Part shown: piece after piece, positions 48,801 to 64,000 of the stretch
How the letters are laid out: the number at the start of each line of letters is the position of its first letter
How positions within the stretch are numbered: position 1 is the stretch's first letter
Origin: a bacterium
GTDB lineage: Bacteria > ARS69
Reading direction: 5' to 3'
DNA length: 64,000 nucleotides
Assembly: GCA_025774805.1 (NCBI GenBank)
Contig: JALGZR010000001.1
Coordinates: forward strand, 9,989-73,988
Notes under the pieces: model-generated
What the model was told of the DNA's origin: nothing
Seen by the model: the letters and a program-made list of their open reading frames with translations, nothing else
Database searches by the model: none
Made by a program: the position numbers and the translations under genes

Positions 48801-49807
48801 ACGCCGATTTCGTAGCAGAGTCCGGCGACCGCGTCCTCCTCCCACTGCGGAGATTGTGCCGTGAGACTGTCCGGCATGCTTGCCCAGTCGTAGGGATCGG
48901 AGAAATCGGCCTCCAGGTAGAGTTCTGGTGTGATGCTGTCACAGGAGGTGTCGCCCGGCCACGAGTAGCCGTGGCCGCCCACACCTTGCAGCGGCCATTG
49001 GTAGTAGTTCATGACCTGAGCTACCGCCGTGGCGACGCAGCCGACATAGGTTCTCGGGAGAGTCGGGTCCTCGTAGCCGTAGAGCTCACAGGTCACACAT
49101 CCCTCGTCGCCTACGGGGCAGTACTTGTTGTATGGCGGTTTCTGGTGCCAGGCTGTCATCAACAGCGGCCAGCGCATTTCATCTGGCAGAGATCGCGCCC
49201 CGCCCTCGAGGAGCCGATCCCATTGCCCCCTGTGAGACTGCCCAGGCAGGGTGTCGTCTCGGGGCGCCATCCGATCCGGGCGACCATGGGTCTCGGTGAA
49301 ATAGCGTACAGCCTGGTGAAGCGATTCTTTGAGAAGCAGCGCCATCCCCCCGCCCGCGCGGATGTCGAGGTTGCTCTCGTCGGAAAAGGCCCGGATGGGC
49401 GCCATCTCCTTGAGAATCGACACCACCACATGACCGTGGGGGGAGATGTTGTAGTTGCGGCCGACAAGCGTGCCGTCCACAACGATGTCCTGGACACCGA
49501 CCACGCTGGGCTCGCGGCTTCCTCCCCAATGCCCCGTGTGGTTCACGATGTGGGTGAGCCAGTTCTCGCACACCTGTTCCATCTCCCCAGGCGTGGCCCT
49601 CTCGGCACGTGCCTCGCAAGGAGTGAGAAGCCACGGGATGAGAGCGCAGGCGATTGTGAGAGGGATCAACAAGCGTATCGGGAAGTGTGTCTCCGCGTTT
49701 CCCCGATGGGAAGTGCTACACCGGGCTGGGTATCCCTGCGGCCACGGATTGTGCCGCGAACTGCTCGGAACGCTCCGATCTAGCGAGTTCAGGTCCTGCC
49801 TTTTCAT
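45893..49807 (-). CDS. Secreted C10-family (streptopain-like) cysteine protease with beta-helix, FG-GAP repeats and FlgD-like tail
   Basis: A 1304-residue protein; ATG 49807 follows AGGAGGAGGT. A long N-region (about 44 residues) precedes a hydrophobic signal (RLLIPLTIACALIPWLL). The protease domain (about 70-450) has catalytic Cys257 in YVGCVATAVAQVMNYY, His406 in YLWHALVVDGW and Asn425 in HANYGW, as in streptopain/C10 peptidases. Next come a short right-handed beta-helix (about 480-690), then seven or so FG-GAP/VCBS repeats of the form WGDYDxDGDLDLAxxG (about 730-1090) that usually bind calcium, an FN3-like domain, and a FlgD/type IX-like end (NPFSPETSIRY, GVYFYRLEGS, RKMTLLR). It is an extracellular adhesin-protease. 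Confidence 0.9.
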   Translation of the reverse strand: MKRQDLNSLDRSVPSSSRHNPWPQGYPARCSTSHRGNAETHFPIRLLIPLTIACALIPWLLTPCEARAERATPGEMEQVCENWLTHIVNHTGHWGGSREPSVVGVQDIVVDGTLVGRNYNISPHGHVVVSILKEMAPIRAFSDESNLDIRAGGGMALLLKESLHQAVRYFTETHGRPDRMAPRDDTLPGQSHRGQWDRLLEGGARSLPDEMRWPLLMTAWHQKPPYNKYCPVGDEGCVTCELYGYEDPTLPRTYVGCVATAVAQVMNYYQWPLQGVGGHGYSWPGDTSCDSITPELYLEADFSDPYDWASMPDSLTAQSPQWEEDAVAGLCYEIGVAFEMDYGVCASSAYLEDARTIMPQFFDYADSMVKVRRVGHTDLEWWTLIRDEVEQGRPMLYNTRMNYLWHALVVDGWSIIDGTRYIHANYGWEYGYNGWFGDGWSGADSLHHSAVPDSDYVICNVMPETPDWGEWYVMPDETGDFPTIQDAIDESTYGWTIWLADGRFTGEGNRGIRYEGKSITIRSASGNSQNCIVDCEDAGYGFVFDSHETPRAVLEGVSVVNSWGGAVILESSPTIRNCIFASNDVGIGIVDGHALLTNCTIYGNSAEGLLFNSPWMSEISNCILWGNGTGTESDQINGLSQSSLISYNCIQGWSGVLGGTGNFGLDPEFCYPDTGNFEIHSESPCVAGNHPDGDDCGLIGACPVGCASPDGFALKQELPGLHWGEAKWGDFDGDDDLDLALCGALSGSWDGTVRTYENQAGTLVERQTLDGVYGRGSDHLAWGDYDADGDLDLAIAGIAYYDAVPDTADQIARVYENDGNGNLTWDTANVLQGLVHASVAWGDYDSDGDLDLALTGWDYGAPTGEYLVGTLYRNDPLGLLAPDTTVSLTGLVGGSGDWGDWDGDGDVDLLTTGAGGNTGTIFYKNDPVGTLTADGDHGLPGVYWSDAAFGDYDGDGDLDLALTGLTDHPESSLARIYENDGAGEFSEVFDLIEFPYASDTFTSSCAWGDYDNDGDLDIVFCGCAEDTSSGSSREYLKVCEYTGSGFVEQDFYFQGIDYGTYDGSLSWADVDRDGRLDLFVTGAGVPPHAKLYDKIGGFPNSAPSSPTDIFVGLSPSGLHFTWNAAVDSETPTSGHYYCLRIGTTPGANNILSGTYGTPLMGNVGQGTEVVVDIPAAGYHWGVRAIDSGFMVSEWSSDVVPTSVAPGGLDVVPMRFALEPNAPNPFSPETSIRYAIPTTGNVTLVVYSVTGRVVRRLVDTRQTPGEYVVKWNGRDEAGRSVASGVYFYRLEGSGFDDTRKMTLLR

Positions 49808-50256
49808 GGCTACCTCCTCCTGCAAGCGGGATCCGACGTGTTCTTCGGGGTCTACTTCTCCGTCGGGACAGGGGGGCAAGACATAACAGACTTTCCGTCA
49901 AAAACAGGACCAACCTGACATCCTGGTGAGTCCGAAGCCTGTCGAGCTGGAGGCTCTGGAGCGGGTCTCCTGGTTCAACAGCACGCGCCTTTTCGAGCCG
50001 ATCGGAAATATCCTGCCGACCAAGTAAGAGGAGGAGTACTATCGAGGTCAGGAGACTTCAGCCGAGGCCGCGGGAGTCAGATAGAAACATCTCCGGAGAG
50101 CCCGGCGCGGTTCAGGTGCCGGGCCGGCGGCCCTTTGGATCATGGGGATGTGACGGTGCCAGGTGACCAGATTGACCACTTCACCCGCGCCTGGTCTGAT
50201 GCCTTGCGCGCTGTAGGCGGCTCACACTGACGGGCCGCACGCACGATTGGGGAGTC
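49808..50256. other. Intergenic region with IS3 remnant
   Basis: About 450 bases between divergent genes. It includes the start-side region of the protease gene and the decayed IS3 transposase end (49935-50129); nothing else is recognised. Confidence 0.5.
49935..50129 (+). mobile_element. Decayed 3' end of an IS3-family transposase (OrfB)
   Basis: In one frame the sequence reads ELEALERVSWFNSTRLFEPI, GNILPTK, a stop, then EEEYYRGQETSAEAAGV and another stop, which follows the C-terminus of IS3-family OrfB (...EWVDWFNxxRLxEPIGNIPPAExEExYY). Two in-frame stops show it is dead. It ends about 130 bases before the first sigma-factor gene. Confidence 0.75.
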
Positions 50257-51030
50257 ATGACCACCTCCCACTCTGGAAGCCCCCAGTGGCCCGAGCGCTT
50301 CCAGGCTCTATGCTGGGAGATGTGCCATCCCCGGGATGCGCAGTCGCGCGATGATGCCCGGGGTCGTGTCTGGATGCTCGTCAACTCTCTCATTTCCGAG
50401 GCCTTGCGGTATCACGCCGGCGGCCAAAGCCGGGTGACCCGTGAGGATTTGGAGGACATCGCCGCGGAAAAATCGTTACAAGTGATGCGGAAGATCGAGT
50501 TAGGAGAGTGGGAGGTGGCCGATCGGCAGCCAGCCGAGGTCAGGGGCTACCTTTCCAAAGTGGCCCGAAACGGTCTGGTCGACTGGCTGCGAGCGGTCCG
50601 CCGGTTTGTCGAACCATCGAAGGATGAGCCGCGCGAGTGGCCTGCGGAGACAGCGGATCCTGAACGCGTGGCCGGCGTGATGAGCACGCCGGTCCCACCT
50701 GACGACCTCGTGGAGGGGACGGAGTTCATCCAAGCCCTGAGGGCGTGCGCCGGCAGGCTGGAACCACGTAGCCGGCTGGTCTGGTTTCTGAGAGTCCTCT
50801 GCGGCATGTCCGGCAAGGAGATCGCCACCCATCCGCGGGTCTCTCTCAGGGCCGGACACGTGAATGTCCTCCTGCAACGAACTCGCGAGAAGATGAGGCA
50901 GTGCATGAAGGCGAAGGGACATGAGCCGCGAGACATGCCGGTAGGAGCCTTCGTCAGAATCTGGGAGATTTGTCAGTTTGATGAGATCCCTAGTCTCGGG
51001 GAGCTAGAACATGAATCACCCACAGGGTAG
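50257..51030 (+). CDS. ECF-type RNA polymerase sigma factor (cassette 1)
   Basis: A 257-residue protein from ATG 50257 with GGGGAG just upstream. Region 2 (about residues 40-118) has VTREDLEDIAAEKSLQVM and RGYLSKVARNGLVDWLRAVRR, the -10 recognition and core-binding pattern of sigma-70 proteins. Region 4 (about 160-222) has RLEPRSRLVWFLRVLCGMSGKEIATHPR followed by a helix-turn-helix. A C-terminal extension of about 35 residues is present. The gene overlaps the next one, a transmembrane anti-sigma factor, by 20 bases, as is normal for ECF sigma/anti-sigma pairs. Its targets are unknown; the cassette itself is a likely one. Confidence 0.85.
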   Translation: MTTSHSGSPQWPERFQALCWEMCHPRDAQSRDDARGRVWMLVNSLISEALRYHAGGQSRVTREDLEDIAAEKSLQVMRKIELGEWEVADRQPAEVRGYLSKVARNGLVDWLRAVRRFVEPSKDEPREWPAETADPERVAGVMSTPVPPDDLVEGTEFIQALRACAGRLEPRSRLVWFLRVLCGMSGKEIATHPRVSLRAGHVNVLLQRTREKMRQCMKAKGHEPRDMPVGAFVRIWEICQFDEIPSLGELEHESPTG

Positions 51031-51889
51031 GGGCGGGGATACCAGCGAACCGATTCCCCACATCGATGGGGATCTCTGTCGGGATCTGTTGAACGGTTTC
51101 CTGTCGTCCCACGAAAGGGAAAGGGCCCTGACGCACATTGCCGGTTGTTCGACGTGCGAGAAGTTGTTCGCCGAGGGGGTCGTCGAGCGGGAGCGCCTGC
51201 GTGCCGTGAGACGGCTTCGCTCCGAACCCGGCGGCGAATTGGTGATCGAGAAGCTCGGGGAAACCGGCCCGGAACGGGGTCTCCCGCTGATCGGGCAAAC
51301 TCCTGAAGACGTGGCCGGCAAGCATGTCCCCCTGCCGGAGATCTGGACCCGGTTGAGGGACCGTGTTCGAGCGGGTTGGCGACGGCCAAGGTACGAGATC
51401 GTTGCCGGTCTGGCGACCGCCGCCGCGGTTCTGTTCGTGATTCTCTGGCCTCATCAGCCTAGAGACCTCGAGAACGACCGGCTCCGCTGGTTGCCCTTCT
51501 TCTTCGACGACCTCCAGGTAAGGGCGGAGGCCGGGAGGGATGTCAGCGAAGATCTGATCGCCGCATTCGATGCGTACGCCGATCATGATGCACCGACGGC
51601 CACCCGTCTGCTGCGGGGGACCGAGGCTACCGGGCAGCTGGAAACGCTCCGCAAGATCTATCTCGGCAGCGCCCTGGCCTGGGAAGGGAATTACGACGAA
51701 GCCGTCGCCGTCCTCCACGGCGTGCGGGCGCAGACGCTGCCCGATCCCTGGGGAAGTGAGACCCGGTGGACACTCTTCGTGGCGTTGAGAGCGTCGGGCC
51801 AGGACGGGGCGGCCGACTCACTTCTTGCCGTATTGGCCGGAGAACGTGGTGAGGTCGCTGAGCGAGCGCGCCGCCTGAGGCAGCGATAG
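51011..51889 (+). CDS. Zinc-finger transmembrane anti-sigma factor with TPR-like outer domain (cassette 1)
   Basis: A 292-residue protein starting at ATG 51011, overlapping the sigma gene. The N-terminal zf-HC2 motif HIAGCSTC (His42, Cys46, Cys49) is the hallmark of anti-sigma domains. A single membrane helix lies at about residues 128-146 (YEIVAGLATAAAVLFVILW), so the sigma-binding part is cytoplasmic. The outer part (about 150-292) is helical and includes LEREALRKIYLGSALAW-like repeat units (actual text ETLRKIYLGSALAWEGNYDEA) resembling TPRs. Such anti-sigmas are normally inactivated by proteolysis; the neighbouring CHAT protease is a candidate. Confidence 0.82.
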   Translation: MNHPQGRGGDTSEPIPHIDGDLCRDLLNGFLSSHERERALTHIAGCSTCEKLFAEGVVERERLRAVRRLRSEPGGELVIEKLGETGPERGLPLIGQTPEDVAGKHVPLPEIWTRLRDRVRAGWRRPRYEIVAGLATAAAVLFVILWPHQPRDLENDRLRWLPFFFDDLQVRAEAGRDVSEDLIAAFDAYADHDAPTATRLLRGTEATGQLETLRKIYLGSALAWEGNYDEAVAVLHGVRAQTLPDPWGSETRWTLFVALRASGQDGAADSLLAVLAGERGEVAERARRLRQR

Positions 51890-51961
51890 CTGACACTGCG
51901 CCGCGCGGGCATCGGTCGCGTCGGTCCGCAGGAGAAGGGACAGAGAGAAGCGGGTGCCGAG

Positions 51962-54900
51962 ATGACCTCACGGATCACCGAGGACGCGCACCGATCCCCT
52001 CTGGGGCTCCACGTTGTCACGCCGTTGATCACCGTTGCCTCGCTTGTCTGCTTCCTGCTGATGAGTGCGTCGTGGGGCGTGCCCTTCTCCGTGCAAATCG
52101 AGCGCTTACGGGCCGAGGGCAAGCATGCCGAGGCTCTGGAGGTGGCTCTCGATTTCCTCCAACTGGACGAGGACCCGGGTGTCTACCCCGCAAGTATCGC
52201 CATCATGAAAGTGCGAGTCGCCACCCTGAGATTCATACTGAGCCTTCCGGAATCGGCCCGGCGCGAGATGACGGAAGCGGATTCCCTCTTCCTGGCGATG
52301 GATCATCAGTGGCAGGCGGGAAACTTCTCCACCGCCGAAGCCCTGGCTCGTCGGCGCCTCGAGCTTCAGCGCCGTCACCTGCCGCAGCCTCACGATGAGG
52401 TGGCTTGGACCCTCTATCATTTGGCGAACTGCGTGGCTCCGGCGGGTGACCTTGCCCAAGCCGAAACGCTCCTCCACCAAGCCCTGGAGATGCAGTTGGA
52501 GGTTCTCGGGCCGGAGAACGCCCCCGTGGGAATCACCCTGGAGCACCTGGGCATGGTGCGCGCCGCCCAGGGCGACTTCGCTCAGGCAGAAGGATTCTAT
52601 CGGCAGGCGTTGGAGACATACTGGCTGATCACGGGGGAGAACCGTGACTGTTTCTCGGGCGACGAAAACGTCCTTCGTACCTGGAGGAGAATGGCGAAGC
52701 TCCACGTCATCCAGGGTGACTACGCCCGAGCCATCCCCATACTCCGCCGGGCCGAGGCGGGCGCTCGCCGGTTTGAAGCCAGACGAAACCTCGACGATAG
52801 ATACTGGTTGACGGCAACGCTCTTGAATGACCTGGCGGTTGTTCTCGAGAGGCAGGGTGACTACTCAGCGGCGGAGCCTCTTTACCGGGAGGCTCTTGCC
52901 ATTCGCCGGCGAGCGCTCGGAGAGGAACATCCTCACGTGATCGGTTGTCTCACTGCGCTGGGAGAGGTGCTCTGTCGTAGCCACCAGGCCGAGGCCGCGC
53001 GCCCCTTGTTGCAGGAAGCGCTCGCAAGGAGCCGGAGGTCACTCGGGAACGAGGATCCACAGACCGCCGCCGTTTTCCTCAGCCTGGCCACCCTCATGCG
53101 CTCGACCGGCCACTTCGCGGTGGCGGAGTCGCTGGCCCACGAGGCGCTGACCATTCAGCGTCTCGCTCTGGGCGAAGAGCATCTGGACGTGGCCAAGTGT
53201 CTGTCTCATTTGGCCCATACCTGTGTGGCCCGGGGAGAGCCGGACGAGGCCGAGGATCACTTCCGGCAGGCTCTTTCCTTGTACGAGAATCTCCTCGACA
53301 ATGAGCATCCCCTGCTGCTCCGGACTACCCACGAGCTCGCCCGCAGCCTGTTGGCGCAACGGGAGCCCTCGGCGGCGGAGTCGCTTCTCTCTCACTCAGC
53401 CACGGCCTTCGAGACCGCGCGGCTGCGAGCGGGAAGCGGATACAGTCGGGCGACGTTTCAGACTTCGCCTTATACCGCACTCGCCGCCTCCCGGCTGGTT
53501 TCAGGAAAGGAGAATGAAGCCTGGCCGGCGGCCGAGAGGGCCCTCGGCCGGGTTTTGGCAGATCTCATCGTCACCGCAGGACACCAACGCCTGAGCTCCC
53601 GTGAGATTGCAGTGCGGGATTCTCTGGCGCGGGTTCTGGGGCGATTGGAAAATCAGCTCTCGGCACTCCGTGAGGCAACGCGCACGAACAGATCCGACCA
53701 GGTTGCCGAAGATTCGCGCACGTTGCGCGTCCGCCTCGCGGAAGCCGAATCGGCTTGGTCTGCCTTTCAAAGGGAAATCGTTTCCCGGCATCCGGGATCC
53801 GAGGGGCACGCCTTCCCCCTGGAGCGCGTCCAAAACGCGCTGACGGAGAGGACGGCTCTCATGGGATGGGTGCACCTGTGGCTGAGCCCGGGCGAGCTGC
53901 TTTCGTGGGGATACGTCATCCGCCGAGACGGAGCGGTTCGCTGGGTCCGGTTGGACGACTCGATCACCGAGGATGCAGCCGGCGCGGGAACCGTAACAGC
54001 CGGTGAGCTTCGGGAAGCCCTGGCCGTCGCCGCATCATGGTTCGTCCGCCCCATCGACGTTGCCCGATTGGACGGGATGGCGGCAGAGCTCTGGGAGCGA
54101 TGGGTTGCCCCCGCGACCGCACATCTCGACGGAGTGGACCACCTCGTGGTGGTTCCATCGGGACCTCTTTTGGGGATCCCTCTCGAGTCGCTGGTGGATT
54201 CGACAGGCACGTATCTGGCCGACCGCTACGCCATCTCCTACGCTCCCTCCGCCACCCTGTACGCCTGGCTGCGCGAGCAGGGTAGTCAGGCGGATCGGGC
54301 TGGGAGCGAGGCCCGCCGAGCCCTGTTGGCAGGCGACCCTCCCTTCACCGCCGATCACCTGACGGCCATGGAATCAGGGAGAGAAGAAGCATCAGGATCG
54401 GATGAGCTCCTCGCCCTGGCGCCGCCTCGCATCGAGACGACCACCGTGCGGAGCGCTCTCGCGGGGAATCAGAACGCCTTGGCGAATCTCCCGCGTCTGC
54501 CGCAGACGCGGGAGGAGGTGGAACGCATCGCTCGGGTGATTCCCGAGGCGACCGTCCTTCTGGGCGCGGAAGCATCCGAGCAGCGTTTGGTGGATCTGGC
54601 GGCGTCGGATGAGCTGCGGGAATTCGATACCATTCATCTGGCTACGCACGCCCTCATGGACGACCGGTTCCCCGAGCGCAGCGCCCTCGTCTTGTCCCGG
54701 GTAGGTCTACCGGACTCCTACGAGGCTGCCATGTCAGGGGAGCGCATCTATGACGGACTTCTCACGGCGAAGGAGATCGTTCGGGAATGGCAGCTGGAGG
54801 CGGATCTCGTCACCTTGAGCGGCTGCCAGACCGGCTTGGGGAAGGAGGCGGCCGGTGAAGGCTACATCGGCCTCGCCCACGCGTTTCTGGAGGCGGGAGC

Positions 54901-55165
54901 CCGAAGTGTTCTGGTGAGCTTGTGGAAGGTGGAGGACCGGGCGACGGCCATGCTCATGCAACGATTCTACCAGAACCTCACCGGTACTTACGATGATGAC
55001 CGCGTCGGCAAGCGTCACGAAACGATGTCAAAGGCCGAAGCCCTGCGTGAGGCCAAGTACTGGCTCCGCACCTACGTGGAACGATCGGGACTCCACGGCG
55101 AGGCAAGTCAGCCGTTTGTTCACCCGGGCTACTGGTCGGGCTTCGTGCTGATCGGCGAATCATGA
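51962..55165 (+). CDS. Exported TPR-CHAT caspase-like protease (cassette 1)
   Basis: A 1067-residue protein. Its N-terminus has one hydrophobic segment (about residues 16-42), acting as signal or anchor, so the rest should be extracytoplasmic. Residues about 100-500 are tetratricopeptide repeats of the NPHC/kinesin-light-chain type (for example AEPLYREALAIRRRALGEEH). Residues about 690-1065 are a CHAT peptidase: His896 in IHLATHALMDD and Cys955 in LVTLSGCQTGLGKEAAGEG form the catalytic dyad, with SYAPSATLYAWL upstream. CHAT proteases cleave specific partner proteins. Being encoded 70 bases after the anti-sigma gene, the anti-sigma is the obvious candidate substrate (inference). Confidence 0.88.
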   Translation: MTSRITEDAHRSPLGLHVVTPLITVASLVCFLLMSASWGVPFSVQIERLRAEGKHAEALEVALDFLQLDEDPGVYPASIAIMKVRVATLRFILSLPESARREMTEADSLFLAMDHQWQAGNFSTAEALARRRLELQRRHLPQPHDEVAWTLYHLANCVAPAGDLAQAETLLHQALEMQLEVLGPENAPVGITLEHLGMVRAAQGDFAQAEGFYRQALETYWLITGENRDCFSGDENVLRTWRRMAKLHVIQGDYARAIPILRRAEAGARRFEARRNLDDRYWLTATLLNDLAVVLERQGDYSAAEPLYREALAIRRRALGEEHPHVIGCLTALGEVLCRSHQAEAARPLLQEALARSRRSLGNEDPQTAAVFLSLATLMRSTGHFAVAESLAHEALTIQRLALGEEHLDVAKCLSHLAHTCVARGEPDEAEDHFRQALSLYENLLDNEHPLLLRTTHELARSLLAQREPSAAESLLSHSATAFETARLRAGSGYSRATFQTSPYTALAASRLVSGKENEAWPAAERALGRVLADLIVTAGHQRLSSREIAVRDSLARVLGRLENQLSALREATRTNRSDQVAEDSRTLRVRLAEAESAWSAFQREIVSRHPGSEGHAFPLERVQNALTERTALMGWVHLWLSPGELLSWGYVIRRDGAVRWVRLDDSITEDAAGAGTVTAGELREALAVAASWFVRPIDVARLDGMAAELWERWVAPATAHLDGVDHLVVVPSGPLLGIPLESLVDSTGTYLADRYAISYAPSATLYAWLREQGSQADRAGSEARRALLAGDPPFTADHLTAMESGREEASGSDELLALAPPRIETTTVRSALAGNQNALANLPRLPQTREEVERIARVIPEATVLLGAEASEQRLVDLAASDELREFDTIHLATHALMDDRFPERSALVLSRVGLPDSYEAAMSGERIYDGLLTAKEIVREWQLEADLVTLSGCQTGLGKEAAGEGYIGLAHAFLEAGARSVLVSLWKVEDRATAMLMQRFYQNLTGTYDDDRVGKRHETMSKAEALREAKYWLRTYVERSGLHGEASQPFVHPGYWSGFVLIGES

Positions 55166-55270
55166 TGTGACGCGCATTTCGTCCTCCACGAGATGACGGT
55201 GTCTTCATGTAGCCCGGCCTATGCCCTGGGGAGGATGATCCGGGCCCGGGACCGGCGCCGGCCCACGTCG

Positions 55271-55310
55271 CCGTCTCCAAAACCTCTCCAAAACCAGGGC
55301 AGACCTGGGT
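55271..55310 (-). pseudogene. Possible second integrase C-terminal remnant
   Basis: CCGTCTCCAAAACCTCTCCAAAA resembles CCGTCTCCAATATCTCTCCAAAA at 44428-44450; read leftward it gives FGEVLET, compared with FGEILET in the integrase tail at 44423. Only these few codons align, so this is a weak but suggestive remnant of a related integrase gene. Confidence 0.4.
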
Positions 55311-55345
55311 GGACTCCAGTCGAATCCAGTGGACTCCAGACGAAT
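55310..55345 (+). repeat. Tandem 16-17-bp direct repeat
   Basis: GTGGACTCCAGTCGAAT and GTGGACTCCAGACGAAT lie side by side (one mismatch) with a period of about 19-20 bases, near the integrase remnant. They could be arm-type recombinase binding sites or residual repeats. Confidence 0.4.
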
Positions 55346-55420
55346 GCCCAAGTCCTTGGGAACAGGAAGGCAAACGCCGAAAGCCGTGCACCATCACCGG
55401 TTAGGATGGATGGCCTGGCA

Positions 55421-55524
55421 GGGTTCGAGTCCATGCACCGCTACCAGTATCGGGTCTGGAAGTCGTTGATTTCCTGGCCATTGCCCGTTCGGGCCATTCC
55501 CCCCGATCGGCCCGTCTCCAATAT
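55421..55524 (+). repeat. Right copy of the tRNA-Met 3' end (att-like site)
   Basis: GGGTTCGAGTCCATGCACCG and the next six bases match the last 26 bases of tRNA-Met with one mismatch, and similarity continues to CCGTCTCCAATAT, after which the copies diverge. No 5' part of a tRNA precedes it. This marks the end of an inserted segment of about 11 kb (44365-55420) or the join of two tandem insertions. Confidence 0.8.
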
Positions 55525-55637
55525 GGATCCATGAAGCGACCCTCAGGGCGAGCTTCCGGGTGACTCTCGGGAAAAGGAGACCTGTGATGCGATGCGTCGC
55601 CCTGGATGCGGACCGGAGACACTCGACCTACTTCCTG

Positions 55638-55950
55638 CTGGCTCACCGAGGCGGGGATCGAGTCGCCGCTGGGCAGCATCGGTGACTCCTAGGACGACGC
55701 GCTGGACGAGTCGGTCCTCGGCCGGTTCAGGAAGGAGATGATCCGGTGTCGCGGGCTGTGGGCAGCCTCAAAAGTGTCGAGTTCGCGACACGGGAGTGAG
55801 TCGCTGGGTTCAGCAATCCTTGCCGGGTCGAGCCGATCGGATATGTTCCGCCGCCGAGTACGAAGAGGAGTATTATCGTGGTCGGGAGGCTCGGGCCGAT
55901 CCGGTCGGAGTCAACAGAGGTGGCCTCCGGAGAACCCGGGGCGGTTCAAG
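55638..55950 (+). mobile_element. Decayed IS3-family transposase (OrfB) 3' part
   Basis: Across frames the sequence gives WLTEAGIESPLGSIGDS, a stop, DDALDESVLGRFRKEMIRCRG, then SVEFATRE, a stop, and EYEEEYYRGREARADPVGVN, matching in order the catalytic C-terminal region of IS3-family OrfB (EAGIxPSVGSVGDSYDNALAES ... EFATLEWVDWFN ... EYEEEYY). Frameshifts and stops show it is inactive. It runs into the start region of the second sigma gene. Confidence 0.75.
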
Positions 55951-55961
55951 GTGCCCAAAAA

Positions 55962-56486
55962 GTGCAGCAGGTCCTCCGATCAGGGATCATCGAAGCGGCT
56001 CGGCGGGGTGAGTCCTGGGCGGAGGAGGCCATCACAAGGGAGATCCGGACGTTAGCCCACCGGATTTGCGGGGGGGGCGGACCCACAGGATCATCCGATT
56101 TCGACTGGGAAGATGTCGCTCAGGAGGCCGGGTGGAGGTTCTTCACAGCGGGGATTCGCCAGTACCGGGGTGAGGGACAAGAAAGGACTTACGTGTACAC
56201 TATCGTCAAGGCGACGTTGATTCAGCTCGCTCGAAGCGCATCGCGCCGCAAGCGACGGGAAGAGACAGCAGACCTGAAGGCGAGTCCGGCTCCTGATCCC
56301 GATTCGGCGATCGACGTGCGGAACCTCCTGAGCCGCCTTGACAAAGCCTGTCAGGAGCTGCTTCGACGAGCGTTCCTGGATGGGGCTTCCTACGCGGATC
56401 TTTCGGCTGAACTCGGGCTTGCCGAATCGTCGATTCGGGCCAAGGTAAGTCGCTGCATCCGCAAGGCGCGGACGTTTGCCGTCTAG
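55962..56486 (+). CDS. ECF-type RNA polymerase sigma factor (cassette 2)
   Basis: About 174 residues if GTG 55962 is the start; the open frame continues to GTG 55878, but that part is antiparallel-free debris of the IS3 remnant in another frame. Region 2 is represented by SSDFDWEDVAQEAGWRFF and RTYVYTIVKATLIQLARSASRRKRR, region 4 by LSRLDKACQELLRRAFLDGASYADLSAELGL and SSIRAKVSRCIRKAR. It is shorter than the paralog at 50257. The start is uncertain because the IS3 remnant overlaps the normal upstream region, which may have changed its promoter. Confidence 0.78.
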   Translation: MQQVLRSGIIEAARRGESWAEEAITREIRTLAHRICGGGGPTGSSDFDWEDVAQEAGWRFFTAGIRQYRGEGQERTYVYTIVKATLIQLARSASRRKRREETADLKASPAPDPDSAIDVRNLLSRLDKACQELLRRAFLDGASYADLSAELGLAESSIRAKVSRCIRKARTFAV

Positions 56487-56738
56487 GACTCAGGCTCCAC
56501 TCCGGCTCCGCAGCCTCTGCTCGTAGGGATCTTCGGGGACTTTTCCATCACTTGGACACCCAGGAGGGGACGTCACCACGGTCCGCAGCGAGGCGGGGGC
56601 CGGTGGCGTCTTTAGTATGTGGGGAGAGTGTGCCCCCCCGGCTTCCCAGCGGAAAAGCGAGATTCTGGATCCTTGAAAAGGCTTCTCAGGCCACGATATC
56701 GTGGCTGACGCAGGGGGTCGATCAGGAGGGGATAGAGG

Positions 56739-57716
56739 GTGAACCCCCCCAAAGCAGAGAACAAGAAACATGTGACTGACGACATCCTGGACTACCTGGA
56801 GGGCCGCTTAACGCCTGAGCGCGTCGGGGAGATCCAGGCGCATCTGAAGCAATGTCCTGATTGTGCTCAGGATTACGCTTGGGCTGAGGCGGTCCATCTA
56901 GGCATCCAGAGCCAGGACCTCCGCCATCTTCGACCCGAACGGATCGTTACGCTCGCGGACGGATCCGCCGGGCCTGCGACTCCTGCCGAAGAGACTCACC
57001 TTCACTCGTGCAGGCACTGCCGCGAGGAGCTGGGTTGGGCTCAATCGGTCCCTTCCCACGATGAGCTCGAGGAAGGCGCGACACCGCTGTCCGCCGCTGC
57101 TTCTCCTCGAGTCGGAAGGCCACAAGAGATCACGCCTGCCCCTGAAGACGCCGTGGGCAGGCGGGGTCCCGGCCTCCTGGCCAGGATGAGGAGCAGCCTG
57201 GCACCCAGCTGGGGGTGGGCGGCGTTGGCCGCCGCGGTCACTCTGATCGTAGTCGCCACATGGAATCGAGATCGTGGGATGACGACCACCGCAGACCTCG
57301 CTCGTATGGAGCCCCTTCCGGTGCGCGTGCAGCGAGGCCCCGTCGCAACGGACGGCTTCGACGAGACATACCATCAGGCACTAGATCGCTACCGTGCAAG
57401 AGAGTTCAAATCCGCGGAAGCGCTCCTCGCTCAGGCAGCTGCTCTCAATCCCGACCACCCTGAAGTTCACTTGTACCTCGGCTCGGCCCGGCTTCTTTTA
57501 GGACGTCTCGAGGACGCCATGCCGGTCCTTCACCGAGCTGTCGAGGTTGCCCGGACACCGGTACAACTGGAAGAGAGTAAGTGGCAGCTCGCGAACGCGT
57601 ATCTCGCCGCCGACCAGGGAGACATGGCAACCGCTGTACTCCGCGAGGTGGTCAAACTCGACGACAATCGTCGAGAGAAGGCCGAGGAATTGCTTCAGTT
57701 ACTTGATGGACGATAA
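56739..57716 (+). CDS. Anti-sigma factor with two zinc fingers, membrane helix and TPR outer domain (cassette 2)
   Basis: A 325-residue protein from GTG 56739 with AGGAGGGG upstream. Two zf-HC2 motifs are present: HLKQCPDC (His35, Cys39, Cys42) and HLHSCRHC (His87, Cys91, Cys94). A membrane helix spans about residues 157-175 (WGWAALAAAVTLIVVATW). The outer domain (about 205-325) has two or three TPRs (YHQALDRYRAREFKSAEALL, PEVHLYLGSARLLLGRLEDA). It is separated from the sigma gene by about 250 bases and sits 32 bases before the TPR-CHAT gene. A membrane anti-sigma with an outer TPR domain could bind the TPRs of the exported protease. Confidence 0.85.
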   Translation: MNPPKAENKKHVTDDILDYLEGRLTPERVGEIQAHLKQCPDCAQDYAWAEAVHLGIQSQDLRHLRPERIVTLADGSAGPATPAEETHLHSCRHCREELGWAQSVPSHDELEEGATPLSAAASPRVGRPQEITPAPEDAVGRRGPGLLARMRSSLAPSWGWAALAAAVTLIVVATWNRDRGMTTTADLARMEPLPVRVQRGPVATDGFDETYHQALDRYRAREFKSAEALLAQAAALNPDHPEVHLYLGSARLLLGRLEDAMPVLHRAVEVARTPVQLEESKWQLANAYLAADQGDMATAVLREVVKLDDNRREKAEELLQLLDGR

Positions 57717-57748
57717 GCCTACCGAAATGTGAAGCGATCGGATTAAAC

Positions 57749-60700
57749 GTGAGATTCCTCTGGACGGTGCCCCTCTTCCTCACTCTCGCAGACCCTACTT
57801 GCGCTTCTTCCCAAGGTGAAGCAAGTCAACGAGCGGACTCCCTGTCCCAGGTCGTCACGGAACTCGCGCAAACGGCACAGTACGCAGAGGCACTGAACCT
57901 CGCCCAGCAACTTTCTACCTTGCTACGGTCGCAGGAAGAAACGAAGCCATTTGAGCTCGCCGACGCCCGGGAGCTTGTGGAATCTCTGAAACTGGCGGCC
58001 GGCTTACCGAAGCGTGCCCAAGAAGAGCTGGCGGAGTCGGACCGCTTGACGAGCGTCTTAGGGGAGCATCTCACCCGGGGAGAGTACACACAGGGCGTAA
58101 GCATCGGCGAACGCCAGCTCGAGATCCGCAAACGTCTACTCGGAGATACGCGGCCGGAAGTTGGAGAGAGTCTCACGAACCTCGCTGTGCTTCTTCGGTA
58201 TCAGGGGGATCTCAAGCGTGCGGAGGCACTCTGCAGGCAGGGGCTTGAGAACTACCACGCCGTGTACGGAGACGAGCATCCCCAAACTGCCGCGGCAAAG
58301 TTCAATCTCGGAGCGATTCTCCGAGAGCAGGGCAGGTATCCCGAAGCAAAGTCACTCCTGCGCGAGGCGCTGGACATTGACCGCAGGCTCCTCGGGGACG
58401 AGGACATCAACCTCGCCTATGACCACAATGACCTGGGTCGCCTGCTGCAGCTTCAGGCCGATTATGCAGGAGCGGAGGGACACTATCGCCGGGCGATAGC
58501 GATCATGCGGAATCACAAGGGGGAGGACAATCCGGAATTCGCCGGTATTCTCGATAATCTCTCCTCGGTCCTGGCCTCCCAGGGCGACCATGCTCAAGCA
58601 GAGCCGCTCCGGCGAAGATCGCTCGCAGTCCGTCGCAAGATTCTTGGCGAAAATCATCCGCTCGTCGCGGAAAGCCTGAGCAACCTGGGATTCGTCTTGA
58701 TGCGGAAAGGCAACATGGCGAGGGCCGAAGCCTACTTCCGGGAAGCCCTTGTCATCTTCCGCAACCTCTTCGGCGAGGAGCATTTTGCCGTTGCTCAGGT
58801 CGCTCATAACCTTGGTGCCGTGTCCATGGGGCGCGGTGACTATGAAAGCGCAGAGGATCAGTATCTGGCCTCGTTGGCCATCTGGCGCAAGATCGTAGGT
58901 GCGGACCATCCAGAGATCGCCACCACCTTGAGGAATCTGGCACGTCTTTACGAGAGGCGAGGGGATTATGCGCTTGCGGAAACGCACTACCAGGAGTCCC
59001 TCGCCATGTATCAGAAGCTCCTGGGAAGCGAGCATCCACTCGTTGCACTGAACCTCAACAGCCTCGCTGTTCTTTGCCGTAGGCGAGGCAACTATGGAAG
59101 AGCGGAAGGGCTCCACCGACAGGCGTTGGTAATGCAAGAGGGGCTTTTGGGGAAGCAGCATCCGGAGGTCGGCGCGACTCTCCTTCAGATGGCCCACCTC
59201 AGTCGGGATCGGCTCGACTACAAGAGTGCCGAGGAGCTCTATGCGAGGGCGGCAACGATCTTCGAGATCGCGCGCCTGCGATCGACGAGGGGACCCTCCA
59301 AGTCCGCCTATCTCTCCTCTCCATACCCTCAGCTTGCAGCGTCTCGATTGGCTTTGGGGGCGACGTCCGAGGCATGGCCGCCCGTGGAGAAGGGTCTTGG
59401 GCGGTTGCTGGCGGATCTTCTCTCCGCCGCTGAGCGTGGAGCTCTGACCCAGGCGGAGTCCGCCCTGCAAGACTCGCTGCTCAGGACGCTGGGGGGTCTG
59501 GAGAGTCAGCTCACGGCGTATAGAAAAGCCGCCCGAAGTGATTCCAGCCAGGCCCTCAAGACAAGAATCCTCGAAGCCAGGAATCGTCTGCTCCTCACCG
59601 AAGCCGATTGGGGGGAGTTCCAACGTGAGGTAGCGTCAAAGCATCCTATCCCCGGGAGGCACGCATATTCGCTGAGGCGAGTGCAGAATGCCCTTCGGGA
59701 GCGGACTGCAATCCTCGGCTGGCTGGATGCTCATGAGGGAAAGGGCAGCCCGGTGACGTGGGGGTACGTCATCAAGCGAACCGGGTCCGTGACATGGGTT
59801 CGGCTCGGCGCTTCCGGGGCCGGTCGTGACTCACAGGGCCGTCAAACAAGAGCTCTACGAGAAGCCTTGGTCGCCCCGGGGGGCTCGACTCTGGGCCCCG
59901 TGTCGACGGCAGAGGTGACCGAGGCTGCCCATGAACTGTGGAAAATGCGCGTGGCGCCTCTCATGGGTTCCTTGGAGGGAATCGAGGACTTAATCGTGAT
60001 TCCTTCCAGCGGCATGCTCGGCGTGCCCGTCGAGGCGCTGGTCGATACCGAAGGAATGTATCTCGGGGACCGACTCAGGATCTCCTACGCTCCCTCCGCA
60101 ACGATCTATGCATCGCTCACCGAGGAGTCCACCAAGCCATACAATCCGGCCACTCGCTCCGGGCTATTCATTGGTGATCCCCCTTATTCCGAGGATCAAC
60201 TGGCTTCGATGGAGCAGAAGGAAGGCCAGAATTCTCCCGAAAACGGAGGCCAGTACACCGCGGAAACAAGCCGCCTGCCCGATGTGAGCCGCCTCCGGAG
60301 CGTGCTCGCGGGTGACGAGGATGCGCTGGCTTCCCTGCCCCGTCTCTATGGCACTAGAGAAGAGATCGCGCACCTGGCATCGTTGTATGAGGAAGCGACA
60401 GTCCTTCTGGGTCCCGACGCCTCCGAGGAGGAAATCACGGGCCTCGCGGAGAGGGACGCGCTCCGCAAGTTCTCCGTGATTCACCTCGCGACGCATGCGC
60501 TTGTCGACGACAAGCAGCCCGAACGTTCGGCGCTGGTCCTCTCACAGGTGGGTGTTCGGGATCAGCTGAAGGCGGCCATGGCGGGAGACCGGATATACGA
60601 TGGCCTCCTGACGACCAAGGAGATTCTCCGGGAGTGGAACCTCGACGCGGATCTCGTGACCCTGAGCGGATGCGAGACGGGCTTGGGGAAAGAGGCAGCG

Positions 60701-60943
60701 GGAGAGGGCTATATTGGCTTCGCGCACGCATTCCTTCAAGCGGGAGCTCGGAGTCTGGTGGTGAGTCTGTGGAACGTCGATGACGATGCAACGTCCCTGC
60801 TCATGCAACGATTTTACGAGAACCGGACAGGCGCAGGGGGCAAGGAGAACCGCGGCACCCGCCACCCCATGACGAAGGCCGAGGCCCTGCGCGAAGCGAA
60901 GCGGTGGCTGCGATCGCATGAGGACGCCGATGGCCGGCGTTAG
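57749..60943 (+). CDS. Exported TPR-CHAT caspase-like protease (cassette 2)
   Basis: A 1064-residue paralog of the protein at 51962. GTG 57749 is followed by a signal peptide (MRFLWTVPLFLTLADPTCAS). About ten TPRs of the kinesin-light-chain/NPHC type fill residues 90-520 (for example AKSLLREALDIDRRLLGDED, AEAYFREALVIFRNLFGEEH). The CHAT domain has His916 in IHLATHALVDD and Cys975 in LVTLSGCETGLGKEAAGEG; the spacing of 59 residues is identical to the paralog (896 to 955). A weak ribosome site precedes it. Substrate is unknown; the adjacent anti-sigma is the leading candidate (inference). Confidence 0.9.
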   Translation: MRFLWTVPLFLTLADPTCASSQGEASQRADSLSQVVTELAQTAQYAEALNLAQQLSTLLRSQEETKPFELADARELVESLKLAAGLPKRAQEELAESDRLTSVLGEHLTRGEYTQGVSIGERQLEIRKRLLGDTRPEVGESLTNLAVLLRYQGDLKRAEALCRQGLENYHAVYGDEHPQTAAAKFNLGAILREQGRYPEAKSLLREALDIDRRLLGDEDINLAYDHNDLGRLLQLQADYAGAEGHYRRAIAIMRNHKGEDNPEFAGILDNLSSVLASQGDHAQAEPLRRRSLAVRRKILGENHPLVAESLSNLGFVLMRKGNMARAEAYFREALVIFRNLFGEEHFAVAQVAHNLGAVSMGRGDYESAEDQYLASLAIWRKIVGADHPEIATTLRNLARLYERRGDYALAETHYQESLAMYQKLLGSEHPLVALNLNSLAVLCRRRGNYGRAEGLHRQALVMQEGLLGKQHPEVGATLLQMAHLSRDRLDYKSAEELYARAATIFEIARLRSTRGPSKSAYLSSPYPQLAASRLALGATSEAWPPVEKGLGRLLADLLSAAERGALTQAESALQDSLLRTLGGLESQLTAYRKAARSDSSQALKTRILEARNRLLLTEADWGEFQREVASKHPIPGRHAYSLRRVQNALRERTAILGWLDAHEGKGSPVTWGYVIKRTGSVTWVRLGASGAGRDSQGRQTRALREALVAPGGSTLGPVSTAEVTEAAHELWKMRVAPLMGSLEGIEDLIVIPSSGMLGVPVEALVDTEGMYLGDRLRISYAPSATIYASLTEESTKPYNPATRSGLFIGDPPYSEDQLASMEQKEGQNSPENGGQYTAETSRLPDVSRLRSVLAGDEDALASLPRLYGTREEIAHLASLYEEATVLLGPDASEEEITGLAERDALRKFSVIHLATHALVDDKQPERSALVLSQVGVRDQLKAAMAGDRIYDGLLTTKEILREWNLDADLVTLSGCETGLGKEAAGEGYIGFAHAFLQAGARSLVVSLWNVDDDATSLLMQRFYENRTGAGGKENRGTRHPMTKAEALREAKRWLRSHEDADGRR

Positions 60944-61236
60944 GAGAGGAGAAGGGAAGACGGCTGAAGGGAATCTACCATGCTCGGCACAGCATTCATG
61001 GTGCAGCGAATTCCGGTCCGGCGACGTCTCTCATATGTGATGCCGAATCCATCCTTCGGCGAGAAGGAATCGCGTCAATCCTGGCTGGATTCAGTATGTC
61101 CCGATTCTCGTCCGCATTCAGGCACGGTGATCATGCCATAGGAACGCATTTCCGAACGAATGACGGCCCTCAGAGCGGCGGTGGCCGAAAGCGCTCCTTT
61201 CTCCCCGCATCTGCATGACATATGGAGGTCCACAAG
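60944..61236. other. Intergenic region
   Basis: About 290 bases with no gene. The promoter of the beta-helix gene should lie here; nothing stands out. Confidence 0.3.
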
Positions 61237-63282
61237 ATGATTGCCAAGCGAAGTCATCCAAAGGGCAGTTTCCCTCTTGGAGAGACAATGGCATTGGTAA
61301 TTGCCCTAGCTGCTGGTACGCCAACCGCGTCCTTGGGCGACGCGTTCAGCGGCCCAATTGTGGCGGACACCACGTGGTCCGGGGATGTGTCTGTCACCGG
61401 GGACGTTGTTGTGGAGCCGGGTGCTGTGCTGACGATTCTCCCTGGGACGACGGTCCTCTTCACCGCGGGTTCCACCTCCTTTGACCACTCGCTCGGCATT
61501 GACGGCCTCTGCGACATGATAGTACGTGGCGCGGTGACCGCGCTGGGCGGACCCGCTAGCTCGGACTCCATACGATTCGATTCAGATGCCGCATCTCCGG
61601 CCCCCGGTGATTGGGGCAAGATTATCGTGTCTGCCCAAGCGACGGATTCGCTCTGCCAGTATCGGTATATGGAAGTTCAGCACGGCACCGTGGGGATCGA
61701 TGTCCAAGGGGATCAGATCTTCATTGACCACTGCCGACTTGCTGGGAATTCCGATGCCGGAATGGAATGGTCGGACCCACCGATCAAGATTTTCTTATCG
61801 AGCATGGTCTTTGAGTCCAACGCAAGTGACGGATTACGCGTGGTCACCGCAGACTCACTGGAGATCACAGATTGTCATTTCCGGGACAACGCTAGTGCCG
61901 GCCTTGCTCTCACGGAATGGAATGTGGCGACGGTCAGTCTGTGCACTTTCGACGGGAATGGTTCAGGCCTGGAGGGTTCTGGAGGTGGCCTCGCAAACCT
62001 TACTAGCTGTTCAGTGACGGGTTCCGTTACGGGTGTGAGTGTATCTGCGGGCGGGAGCGCTGGCGGTTTGCATCTGGAGGGAAGCACGGTATCGGGTGTG
62101 GTGGAGGTGACGGGTAGTGGGACGGTGGAGGTGTTGGGGAATCCCTCGTTGGAGAGTGTGAGTTGTACGGCAACGGACGGAGTTGACTCGCTCGAGGTGT
62201 TCGTGAACGACAATTCCGTGTCGGGTTGGATCAGCTTGCGGAGCGATGGCAGCGAGGCCAGGCTATCCGGGGAGGTCCGACGGAATGTAGTGTCCGGAGT
62301 GAGTTTGTATGCGGGGGGTTATATCAACGGGGACTGGGCGTACATGACGGCGGTGGTTGACAGTAATGTGGTGAGTGGGGGGACGACCGGAATCCGTATT
62401 CAGGCAAGCAAGTACAACATCAACTACAGGTGGTATGGCCGGATTGATGCGACGCTGACGAGGAACGAGATCACAGGGAGTACCTATGGGATCAATGCGT
62501 TCGAGAGTTTGATATATCCACTTTATCTGGGGATTCTGAACCTGACGAGTGCGGAGAATGTGATTACGGGATCGCCGACAGGGATCCGGTTGGACGGGTT
62601 TGATAGCGCCTCATTCGACGGGGATGTGATCACTGCATGTGAGACAGGGATCGACTGCTCCGGTGGAGGCGATCTCACGATGCGCTCGTGCGGGGTGACG
62701 GGAAACGCCGTAAAGGGGCTGATCTTCACAAACAGTCCGGGTGTAGTGCTTGGGGGTTCGTTGGCGGAGGCGAATGATATCTACGCTAACACCGGACAGA
62801 ACGTGGAGACGACGGACCTGGTGGAGGCGGCCTACAACTACTGGGGAACGACCGACGAGGACAGCCTGGTGGCGATGATCACGGGGCCGGTGAACTACTC
62901 GCCCTGGACGGATGCATCGCACACCGGGGTCTACGCCACGACGTACCGGAGCGGGTTGATCACTGGCATAGAGCACTGGAGCGGCGAGGTGAAGGTTGCC
63001 GGGGATGTGCTCGTTCCTTTCGGTTCGAGTCTGACGATAGATCCCGGAATGGGACACGCTGGATGTGACGGCGGGTCGGTGCGACTTGATTGTGGAAGGA
63101 GTACTTCGGATCGAGGGCGGGGTGCTGCCAGGAGACAGCGTGGAGGTTCGTGGCTGGCTGCCGCTCGAGGAGATCGATCCCGTGGGTGGTCAGTGGGGGC
63201 GGGTGATGTTTTTGGGGAGTTCGATGGACAGTTCGTGTGTGGTCGAGCATGCGCGTCTGGAGGGGGCGACGGTAGCGATTGA
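61237..63282 (+). CDS. Secreted beta-helix repeat protein, frameshifted
   Basis: ATG 61237 is chosen because GGAGGT lies seven bases upstream (an ATG at 61222 is less likely). A signal sequence (MALVIALAAGTPTASLGDA) is followed by DTTWSGDVSVTGDVVVEPG and right-handed beta-helix repeats (for example VTADSLEITDCHFRDNASAG, ATVSLCTFDGNGSG). In this frame the protein stops at 63282, but near 63045-63056 it shifts out of the frame that continues the fold: a one-base gain (or two-base loss) turns the expected DPGTTLDVT into DPGMGHAG. Either the gene is disrupted, the shift is real and regulated, or the base call is wrong. Confidence 0.75.
   Translation: MIAKRSHPKGSFPLGETMALVIALAAGTPTASLGDAFSGPIVADTTWSGDVSVTGDVVVEPGAVLTILPGTTVLFTAGSTSFDHSLGIDGLCDMIVRGAVTALGGPASSDSIRFDSDAASPAPGDWGKIIVSAQATDSLCQYRYMEVQHGTVGIDVQGDQIFIDHCRLAGNSDAGMEWSDPPIKIFLSSMVFESNASDGLRVVTADSLEITDCHFRDNASAGLALTEWNVATVSLCTFDGNGSGLEGSGGGLANLTSCSVTGSVTGVSVSAGGSAGGLHLEGSTVSGVVEVTGSGTVEVLGNPSLESVSCTATDGVDSLEVFVNDNSVSGWISLRSDGSEARLSGEVRRNVVSGVSLYAGGYINGDWAYMTAVVDSNVVSGGTTGIRIQASKYNINYRWYGRIDATLTRNEITGSTYGINAFESLIYPLYLGILNLTSAENVITGSPTGIRLDGFDSASFDGDVITACETGIDCSGGGDLTMRSCGVTGNAVKGLIFTNSPGVVLGGSLAEANDIYANTGQNVETTDLVEAAYNYWGTTDEDSLVAMITGPVNYSPWTDASHTGVYATTYRSGLITGIEHWSGEVKVAGDVLVPFGSSLTIDPGMGHAGCDGGSVRLDCGRSTSDRGRGAARRQRGGSWLAAARGDRSRGWSVGAGDVFGEFDGQFVCGRACASGGGDGSD
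62025..62619 (+). repeat. First copy of a large internal repeat in the beta-helix gene
   Basis: This stretch is nearly repeated at 63406-64000 (offset 1381 bases), for example both carry LHLEGSTVSGVVEVTGSG and VLGNPSLESVSCTATDG. The offset is one more than a multiple of three, agreeing with the one-base frameshift near 63050. The repeat continues beyond the window. Confidence 0.85.
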
Positions 63283-64000
63283 CGAGTTTGATGCGTCGCC
63301 GACCGTACGCAATTCGATCTTGCGGGTGACATCGAGTCATGGAGCTTCGGGGGGTGGTGATGGGTATCTGAATATTGAGGACTGCGCGATAACGGAGAGT
63401 GGTTCGGGTACGGGTGTGAGTGTGTCTGCGAGCGGGAGCGCTGGCGGTTTGCATCTTGAGGGGAGCACGGTATCGGGTGTGGTGGAGGTGACGGGTAGTG
63501 GGACGGTGGAAGTATTGGGGAATCCCTCGTTGGAGAGTGTGAGTTGTACGGCGACGGACGGGATTGACTCGCTCGAGGTGTCCGTGAACGACAATTCCGT
63601 TTCAGGTTCGATCGCTCTGAGGAGCGACGGGAGCGAGGCGAGGCTAACCGGAGAGGTGCGGCGGAATACGGCATCCGGAGTAAGTTTGTATGCGGCGGGT
63701 TATATCAACGGAGACTGGGCGTACATGACGGCGGTGGTTGACAGTAATGTGGTCAGTGGGGGTACGACCGGAATATATCTTCAGGCGAGCAAGTACAACA
63801 TCAACTACATTTGGTATGGTCGGATTGACGCGACGGTGACGAGGAATGAGATCACCGGGAGTATCCATGGGATTAATGCGTTCGAAAGCTTAAGGTATTC
63901 GACCCACTTGGGGACTCTGAACCTGGCGAGTGCGGAGAATGTGATTACGGGGTCCCCGACGGGAATCCGGTTGGACGGGTTTGAGACGGCCTCATTCGAC
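63056..64000 (+). CDS. Continuation of the beta-helix protein in the shifted frame (runs off window)
   Basis: From 63056 the +1 frame is open to the window end with no stop and continues the same fold: TLDVTAGRCDLIVEGVLRIE, VMFLGSSMDSSCVVEHARLE, then the second repeat copy. Codon-level agreement with the first copy and the lack of stops over 315 codons make this a genuine continuation rather than chance. The 3' end is outside the window. Confidence 0.75.
63406..64000 (+). repeat. Second copy of the large internal repeat
   Basis: Near-identical to 62025-62619, with scattered substitutions that are mostly conservative at protein level (for example VSGWISLRSDG versus VSGSIALRSDG). Recent duplication or gene conversion within a surface protein gene is likely. 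Confidence 0.85.

Follow-up and report, generated by a model that had tools for sequence, protein, structure and literature searches.

Does a TPR-CHAT protease cut the anti-sigma factor encoded beside it, and so control a sigma factor from across the membrane? This question is raised by a 64,000-nucleotide stretch of bacterial DNA (the window; GTDB lineage ARS69, GenBank assembly GCA_025774805.1, contig JALGZR010000001.1, positions 9,989 to 73,988), in which two three-gene cassettes lie side by side. Each encodes an extracytoplasmic function (ECF) sigma factor, a membrane anti-sigma factor and a protein with tetratricopeptide repeats (TPRs) and a CHAT domain (Table 1). All six open reading frames (ORFs) are present on the + strand in the places, order and direction given in a preliminary description of this DNA, and the two catalytic dyads named there, His896/Cys955 and His916/Cys975, are intact at codon level, each with a spacing of 59 residues. 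On balance, we favour the reading that the triads are modules for signalling across the membrane, in each of which the exported CHAT protease cuts the anti-sigma factor to free the sigma factor.

The linkage of the three genes extends well beyond the window. With the cassette 1 sigma factor alone as the query (E ≤ 1e-15), 20 loci were retrieved, and a membrane anti-sigma gene adjoined the sigma gene in all 20. A TPR-CHAT gene was adjacent in 18 of these loci; the remaining two have an exported TPR ORF at that place, cut short by the end of the contig. The search of 22 genomes gave 13 matches by a wide margin, all in triads (one ending at the contig end), and 47 genomes from the phylum of the Candidatus Eisenbacteria reference yielded seven more sigma factors, with the anti-sigma gene beside all seven and the CHAT gene beside six; for the seventh, the contig ends within an exported TPR ORF. 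These seven of the 20 loci came from genomes that had not been selected for CHAT proteins. When the anti-sigma factor served as the query, a CHAT gene was adjacent at most of the better matches. Co-directional, divergent, convergent and CHAT-first arrangements were all seen, adjacency being kept throughout.

The host genome, a 5.1 Mb draft in 284 contigs, contains eight CHAT matches. A third triad, with a transmembrane (TM) anti-sigma factor and a CHAT protein predicted to be exported, lies on its contig C51, and contig C120 carries another, whose middle protein is soluble. Further triads were found by scanning named genomes for CHAT. The soluble type was also searched for with a soluble middle protein alone, and all 15 loci found in this way adjoin both a sigma and a TPR-CHAT gene. 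One of them, L207 (G091:C8), holds two soluble-type triads (sigma factor, zinc-finger protein, TPR-CHAT) in tandem, parallel to the pair in the window.

From the CHAT side, 18 of 41 genes with full flanks had a sigma gene within 2.6 kb, and 11 had both a sigma and an anti-sigma gene, so that CHAT genes occur in other settings besides the triad. Based on about 32 sigma-like matches per 5.1 Mb, we estimate the chance of a sigma gene falling within 2.6 kb of a CHAT gene at a few percent. A chance neighbourhood or a feature of a single lineage could be suspected from the many lone CHAT genes and from the origin of the complete window-type triads, most of which come from Ca. Eisenbacteria and Krumholzibacteriota. 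However, the 20/20 and 15/15 linkage, the several gene orders and the single loci in records of Myxococcota, Acidobacteriota and Aminicenantes speak against it. The arrangement is found in genome after genome and is not peculiar to the window; the linkage of sigma, anti-sigma and CHAT genes is not a matter of chance. A chance neighbourhood is refuted at this level, and the explanation as a whole has a negligible probability. At L105, L109, L119 and L120, a sigma gene lies directly upstream of an exported CHAT gene; L109 and L119 also have a TM zinc-finger gene upstream on the opposite strand, and none was recognised at L105 and L120.

Both sigma factors in the window exceed the cut-off of the NCBIfam sigma70-ECF model TIGR02937 (42.9 bits), in agreement with their earlier assignment to the ECF superfamily. 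The anti-sigma factors both have the ZAS architecture, with an N-terminal HxxxCxxC motif, a single predicted TM helix and a C-terminal part made of TPRs and predicted to be extracytoplasmic. Their description as zinc-finger membrane anti-sigma factors therefore holds for motif, helix and outer TPRs, but a Pfam zinc-finger match was found only for anti-sigma 2 (zf-HC2, 31 bits, above the cut-off; TPR_19, 39.4 bits), anti-sigma 1 having no such match of its own. Two zinc-finger-like motifs stand in tandem in anti-sigma 2 (HLKQCPDC and HLHSCRHC); its relative at L198 has two as well. An AlphaFold2 model of anti-sigma 1 predicts a confident TPR domain at residues 178–292, which resembles periplasmic TPRs; the best match is the YbgF TPR domain (2xev; Z = 14.6, root-mean-square deviation (r.m.s.d.) 1.9 over 113), and BamD gives Z = 13.4.

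The two cassettes had been described as paralogous. This is borne out for the CHAT genes, whose products share 41% identity over 1051 residues, but not for their partners. A BLASTP comparison of the two sigma factors gave nothing better than E = 0.05 (17.7% identity when aligned), and the similarity between the anti-sigma factors is confined to 57 residues of the TPR part (E = 0.001). The nearest relatives of sigma 1 are the sigma factors of the Ca. Eisenbacteria triads, while sigma 2 is closest, within the compared set, to the L094 sigma factor (43%). Judged by these comparisons, sigma 2 belongs to a different ECF lineage from sigma 1. A tandem duplication of the whole cassette is ruled out by these different lineages; rather, similar CHAT genes have been joined to different ECF lineages.

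Both CHAT proteins contain many TPR_12 and TPR_10 repeats. The AlphaFold2 model of CHAT 1 (predicted local distance difference test (pLDDT) 88.5, predicted template modelling score (pTM) 0.87) matches separase (5fc3; Z = 26.8, r.m.s.d. 3.2 Å over 323 residues) as well as the TPR-CHAT structures 8d9g and 7y9x, which points to the same fold with a His/Cys dyad. The match to Csx29 (8d9g) extends over 512 residues (Z = 26.8) with an r.m.s.d. of 9.7, indicating that the domain angles differ. In an alignment of 35 CHAT proteins, the catalytic His and Cys are conserved in all, and an Asp at a motif matching that of separase is kept in 33. This conservation bears on the idea that the CHAT protein is a binding partner, which would stabilise or shield the anti-sigma factor by TPR–TPR contact, its proteolysis removing only itself or other proteins. 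TPRs do occur in both proteins, and a report on cell-surface signalling describes how a partner protein protects an anti-sigma factor (PMC11637429). Pure binding, however, has no need of a dyad and an S1-type Asp that are kept in nearly all members, and we regard this idea as improbable.

Export was called with a home-made signal-peptide heuristic. Among window-type loci, the anti-sigma factor has a TM helix in 36 of 36, and 31 of the 36 CHAT proteins pass the heuristic. CHAT 1 has a hydrophobic N-terminal signal at residues 18–36, and five CHAT proteins among the seven extra loci contain sequences that resemble a lipobox, for example LAGC or LSGC. Three of the five that fail (L082, L087 and L025) have a hydrophobic N-terminal stretch by eye, and L194 is doubtful. 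Given the signal or lipobox on the CHAT protein and the TM helix and outer TPRs of the anti-sigma factor, the two could meet outside the inner membrane. For the soluble type (the 15 loci and four earlier ones), signals were called in 0/19 and TM helices in 1/19. The CHAT tree shows only two changes between the window and soluble types; L187 falls within the window-type CHAT clade, yet has neither TM helix nor signal. Matching compartments are what a pair obliged to meet would show, though two changes do not amount to a test.

The soluble-type middle proteins give only weak matches to zf-HC2 and CarboxypepD_reg. Their H-C-C motif is kept, so they may be anti-sigma factors that the profiles miss. 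CHAT genes are conserved near ECF54 sigma genes, for which proteolytic control without an anti-sigma factor has been proposed (PMC8999054). Like the triads, the ECF54 arrangement, with a tabulated example from Geodermatophilus, places a CHAT gene near an ECF sigma gene; by the published description it lacks an anti-sigma factor, whereas one is present here and the window-type CHAT protein is predicted to be exported. The weak profile matches would fit a separate soluble system in which, along the lines suggested for ECF54, the sigma factor itself is what CHAT degrades, the window type being a later variant. The H-C-C motif argues otherwise, and in the window type an exported CHAT protein and a cytoplasmic sigma factor would lie on opposite sides of the membrane; we give this explanation a slim chance. 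A conserved Arg within an RR.RF-like motif occurs in the soluble middle proteins of L012, L022, L027 and L206–L219, between the zinc-finger part and a carboxypeptidase-regulatory-like beta domain. It is perhaps the counterpart of Arg171 in anti-sigma 1.

Arg171 lies between the membrane and the TPR domain. It is invariant in 28 of 28 TPR-type anti-sigma factors aligned, including eight from outside the discovery alignment, and together with Leu201 it is the sole invariant residue of their outer part. The residue that follows it is mostly Gly, Ala or Ser. Separases cleave behind an Arg, and modelling has placed this P1 Arg in the hold of a conserved Asp, which belongs to the helix that follows the catalytic Cys (PMC4626109). 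From the invariant Arg171 and the CHAT Asp at the corresponding position, we infer a site-1 cut after Arg171.

In the favoured reading, the ECF sigma factor would be bound in the cytoplasm by the zinc-finger part of an anti-sigma factor whose TM helix bears the outer TPR domain. The TPR-CHAT protein, a separase-like cysteine protease, would be exported (as a lipoprotein in relatives) and may sense a signal by means of its TPR array, which is long and resembles that of kinesin light chains. It would then cut the anti-sigma factor between the membrane and the TPR domain, most likely after Arg171 (Arg199 in cassette 2). Such a cut would be a site-1 cleavage, like that of DegS on RseA, making CHAT a putative extracytoplasmic site-1 protease of an ECF anti-sigma factor. 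A site-2 M50 protease might complete the release of the sigma factor; M50 site-2 protease genes are present in the host genome. For relatives of the soluble type, the corresponding pair would work inside the cytosol.

ECF factors often regulate their own operon and adjoining target genes. CHAT could accordingly be an output, the sigma factor turning on an exported protease for other envelope targets while another protease responds to the signal by cutting the anti-sigma factor. This would suit the position of CHAT as usually the last gene of co-directional loci, and also L105, L120 and L017, where a sigma gene stands beside an exported CHAT gene and no anti-sigma gene was recognised. It does not predict a soluble anti-sigma factor paired with a non-exported CHAT protein, and the strict, order-independent 20/20 linkage exceeds that of a usual target gene. 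Moreover, the regions upstream of ten sigma genes contained no shared bipartite ECF promoter motif exceeding those in shuffled sequences. We consider CHAT as an output unlikely, although deserving of attention. The regulon was also sought among neighbouring genes; those for secreted proteins with FlgD-type tails or beta-helices adjoin several loci, but their density (2.4 per 100 kb at window-type loci) was no different from that around soluble-type (4.0) and lone CHAT genes (2.3), and this guess was dropped.

Several observations weigh against cleavage of the anti-sigma factor by CHAT as favoured here. Many close CHAT relatives have no sigma gene nearby, and L105, L120 and L017 show no anti-sigma gene beside sigma and CHAT. 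The outer domains at the window-type loci L109, L119 and L098 differ from the TPR type. Arg171 also occurs in TPR anti-sigma factors with no visible CHAT gene (L198 and L189, and L190 at a contig end), so it may be structural or cut in trans; as a mark of CHAT-linked anti-sigma factors only, it was rejected. Two CHAT proteins of a divergent clade lack the S1 Asp while their anti-sigma factors retain the Arg. The export heuristic is a home-made one, and L094 is a real exception, with a TM anti-sigma factor but no signal peptide found on its CHAT protein. With only two independent changes, compartment matching cannot reach significance as a statistical test. Coevolution is likewise weak between CHAT and anti-sigma factor (Mantel r = 0.39), where 244 of 1152 cassette swaps within genomes gave an equally good agreement, and was rejected as proof of wiring. 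For CHAT and sigma factor, only 4 of 1152 such swaps did as well, and the distance matrices of sigma and anti-sigma factors correlate with r = 0.82. L198 (G000:C280, 7919–9200, - strand) is a cassette-2-like sigma gene with a TPR anti-sigma gene and no adjoining CHAT gene; this pair is possibly served by a CHAT protein in trans.

The tested example of a CHAT protease cutting a sigma inhibitor is Csx29/Csx30/CASP-sigma of type III-E CRISPR systems, where the cut in Csx30 falls between residues 427 and 429 and no residue is essential for it (PMC10028731). Csx29 is likewise a TPR-CHAT protein, alike in overall fold; its linked partners are an ECF sigma factor and the inhibitor of that factor, and cleavage of the inhibitor frees transcription, as cleavage would here. 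In contrast to cytosolic Csx29, the CHAT proteins described here have predicted signal peptides or lipoboxes and would be on the same side of the membrane as the outer domain of a TM zinc-finger/TPR anti-sigma factor. The acidic S1-type position also differs (KVRSNKT in Csx29, KVEDxAT in these proteins), and the two CHAT proteins of the window score 13.0 and 14.6 bits against the Csx29 family model NF041237, far below its cut-off of 300. No RAMP-family gene (PF03787, Cas7-11/gRAMP) was matched in the 284-contig host draft. The preliminary description had proposed that CHAT controls an ECF sigma factor through the anti-sigma factor without CRISPR, on the model of Csx29. The recurrent gene order, the covarying compartments and the absence of a type III match in the draft agree with this proposal, but Csx29 is a misleading model for the topology, the present CHAT proteins being predicted to be exported.

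The logic is likely closer to that of DegS, RseA and RpoE in E. coli and of other site-1/site-2 anti-sigma cascades, with which the window type shares a TM anti-sigma factor and the presence of M50 site-2 proteases, CHAT being the candidate extracytoplasmic site-1 protease. Instead of the PDZ serine protease, PrsW or signal peptidase of such cascades, this protease would be a separase/caspase-like cysteine protease with TPRs, and its gene lies next to that of the anti-sigma factor. Eukaryotic separase (5fc3) shares the protease fold, a helical-repeat N-terminal part, the His/Cys dyad and an Asp close to where the helix that follows the catalytic Cys begins; the present proteins are bacterial and predicted to be exported, with no cohesin or securin.

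CHAT genes near ECF54 and CHAT cleavage of a sigma inhibitor in Csx29/Csx30 were thus already known. Literature text searches, which covered few subscription papers and not the 2021 ECF classification, found no account of an exported CHAT protein paired with a membrane anti-sigma factor. The new part would be anti-sigma proteolysis by a new class of candidate site-1 protease. More tentatively, the triad may be a transferable module that five or more phylum-level lineages possess: a dedicated, Arg-specific, separase-like CHAT protease outside the inner membrane would make the site-1 cut in the anti-sigma factor at one invariant Arg, with a matched cytosolic version; this would be a CRISPR-independent form of the logic by which Csx29 cuts Csx30. 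If CHAT does cut the anti-sigma factor, caspase/separase-like proteases would be among the initiators of transmembrane anti-sigma proteolysis. Exported TPR-CHAT proteins are numerous in bacteria and most have not been studied; one class of them would then have a role. CRISPR-free relatives of the type III-E Craspase logic might also provide a protease switch for synthetic circuits. Since the reading says which protein would be cut, at which candidate residue, and which mutants to compare, it is directly testable.

Table 1. Genes and key codons of the two cassettes, in window coordinates.
Feature	Position	Strand	Remarks
Cassette 1 ECF sigma factor, 257 aa	50257..51030	+	TIGR02937 50.2 bits; founder of the CHAT-linked sigma subfamily alignment; overlaps the anti-sigma gene by 20 bases
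Cassette 1 membrane anti-sigma factor, 292 aa	51011..51889	+	HxxxCxxC 42-49; TM 128-146, RRPR before TM
Anti-sigma 1 Arg171 codon	51521..51523	+	between TM and TPR domain; putative cut site; codon checked
Cassette 1 TPR-CHAT protease (export predicted), 1067 aa	51962..55165	+	Pfam CHAT 220.6 bits
Cassette 1 CHAT domain	about 54080-55159	+	
CHAT 1 catalytic His896 codon	54647..54649	+	kept 35/35
CHAT 1 catalytic Cys955 codon	54824..54826	+	kept 35/35
CHAT 1 Asp992 codon	54935..54937	+	putative position of separase P1-Arg-holding residue, by motif; kept 33/35
Cassette 2 ECF sigma factor, 202 aa	55878..56486	+	TIGR02937 51.4 bits; start codon uncertain
Cassette 2 membrane anti-sigma factor, 325 aa	56739..57716	+	zf-HC2; TM 154-172; outer TPRs
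Anti-sigma 2 Arg199 codon	57333-57335	+	counterpart of Arg171
Cassette 2 TPR-CHAT protease, 1064 aa	57749..60943	+	Pfam CHAT 195.6 bits; signal-peptide-like N-terminus
CHAT 2 His916 codon	60494-60496	+	
CHAT 2 Cys975 codon	60671-60673	+	
CHAT 2 Asp1012 codon	60782-60784	+	

A narrow peptide query turned up no relative among viral contigs. G+C content is 60–63% in window positions 48000–64000 and in G000 contig C253, and 66–69% in the other CHAT-bearing contigs of the host genome; this lower value and an estimated 5% contamination of the genome mean that the contig is possibly misbinned or recently acquired. Divergent from cassette 1, a gene at 45893–49879 (- strand) encodes a secreted C10-family (streptopain-type) cysteine peptidase, which also has a beta-helix, FG-GAP repeats and a FlgD-type C-terminal domain. 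Downstream of cassette 2, a beta-helix/NosD-type ORF at 61222–64000 (+ strand) is split into two frames. Similar sequence recurs at 63.0–64.0 kb and past the window end, and this region consists of repeated or frame-broken surface protein genes.
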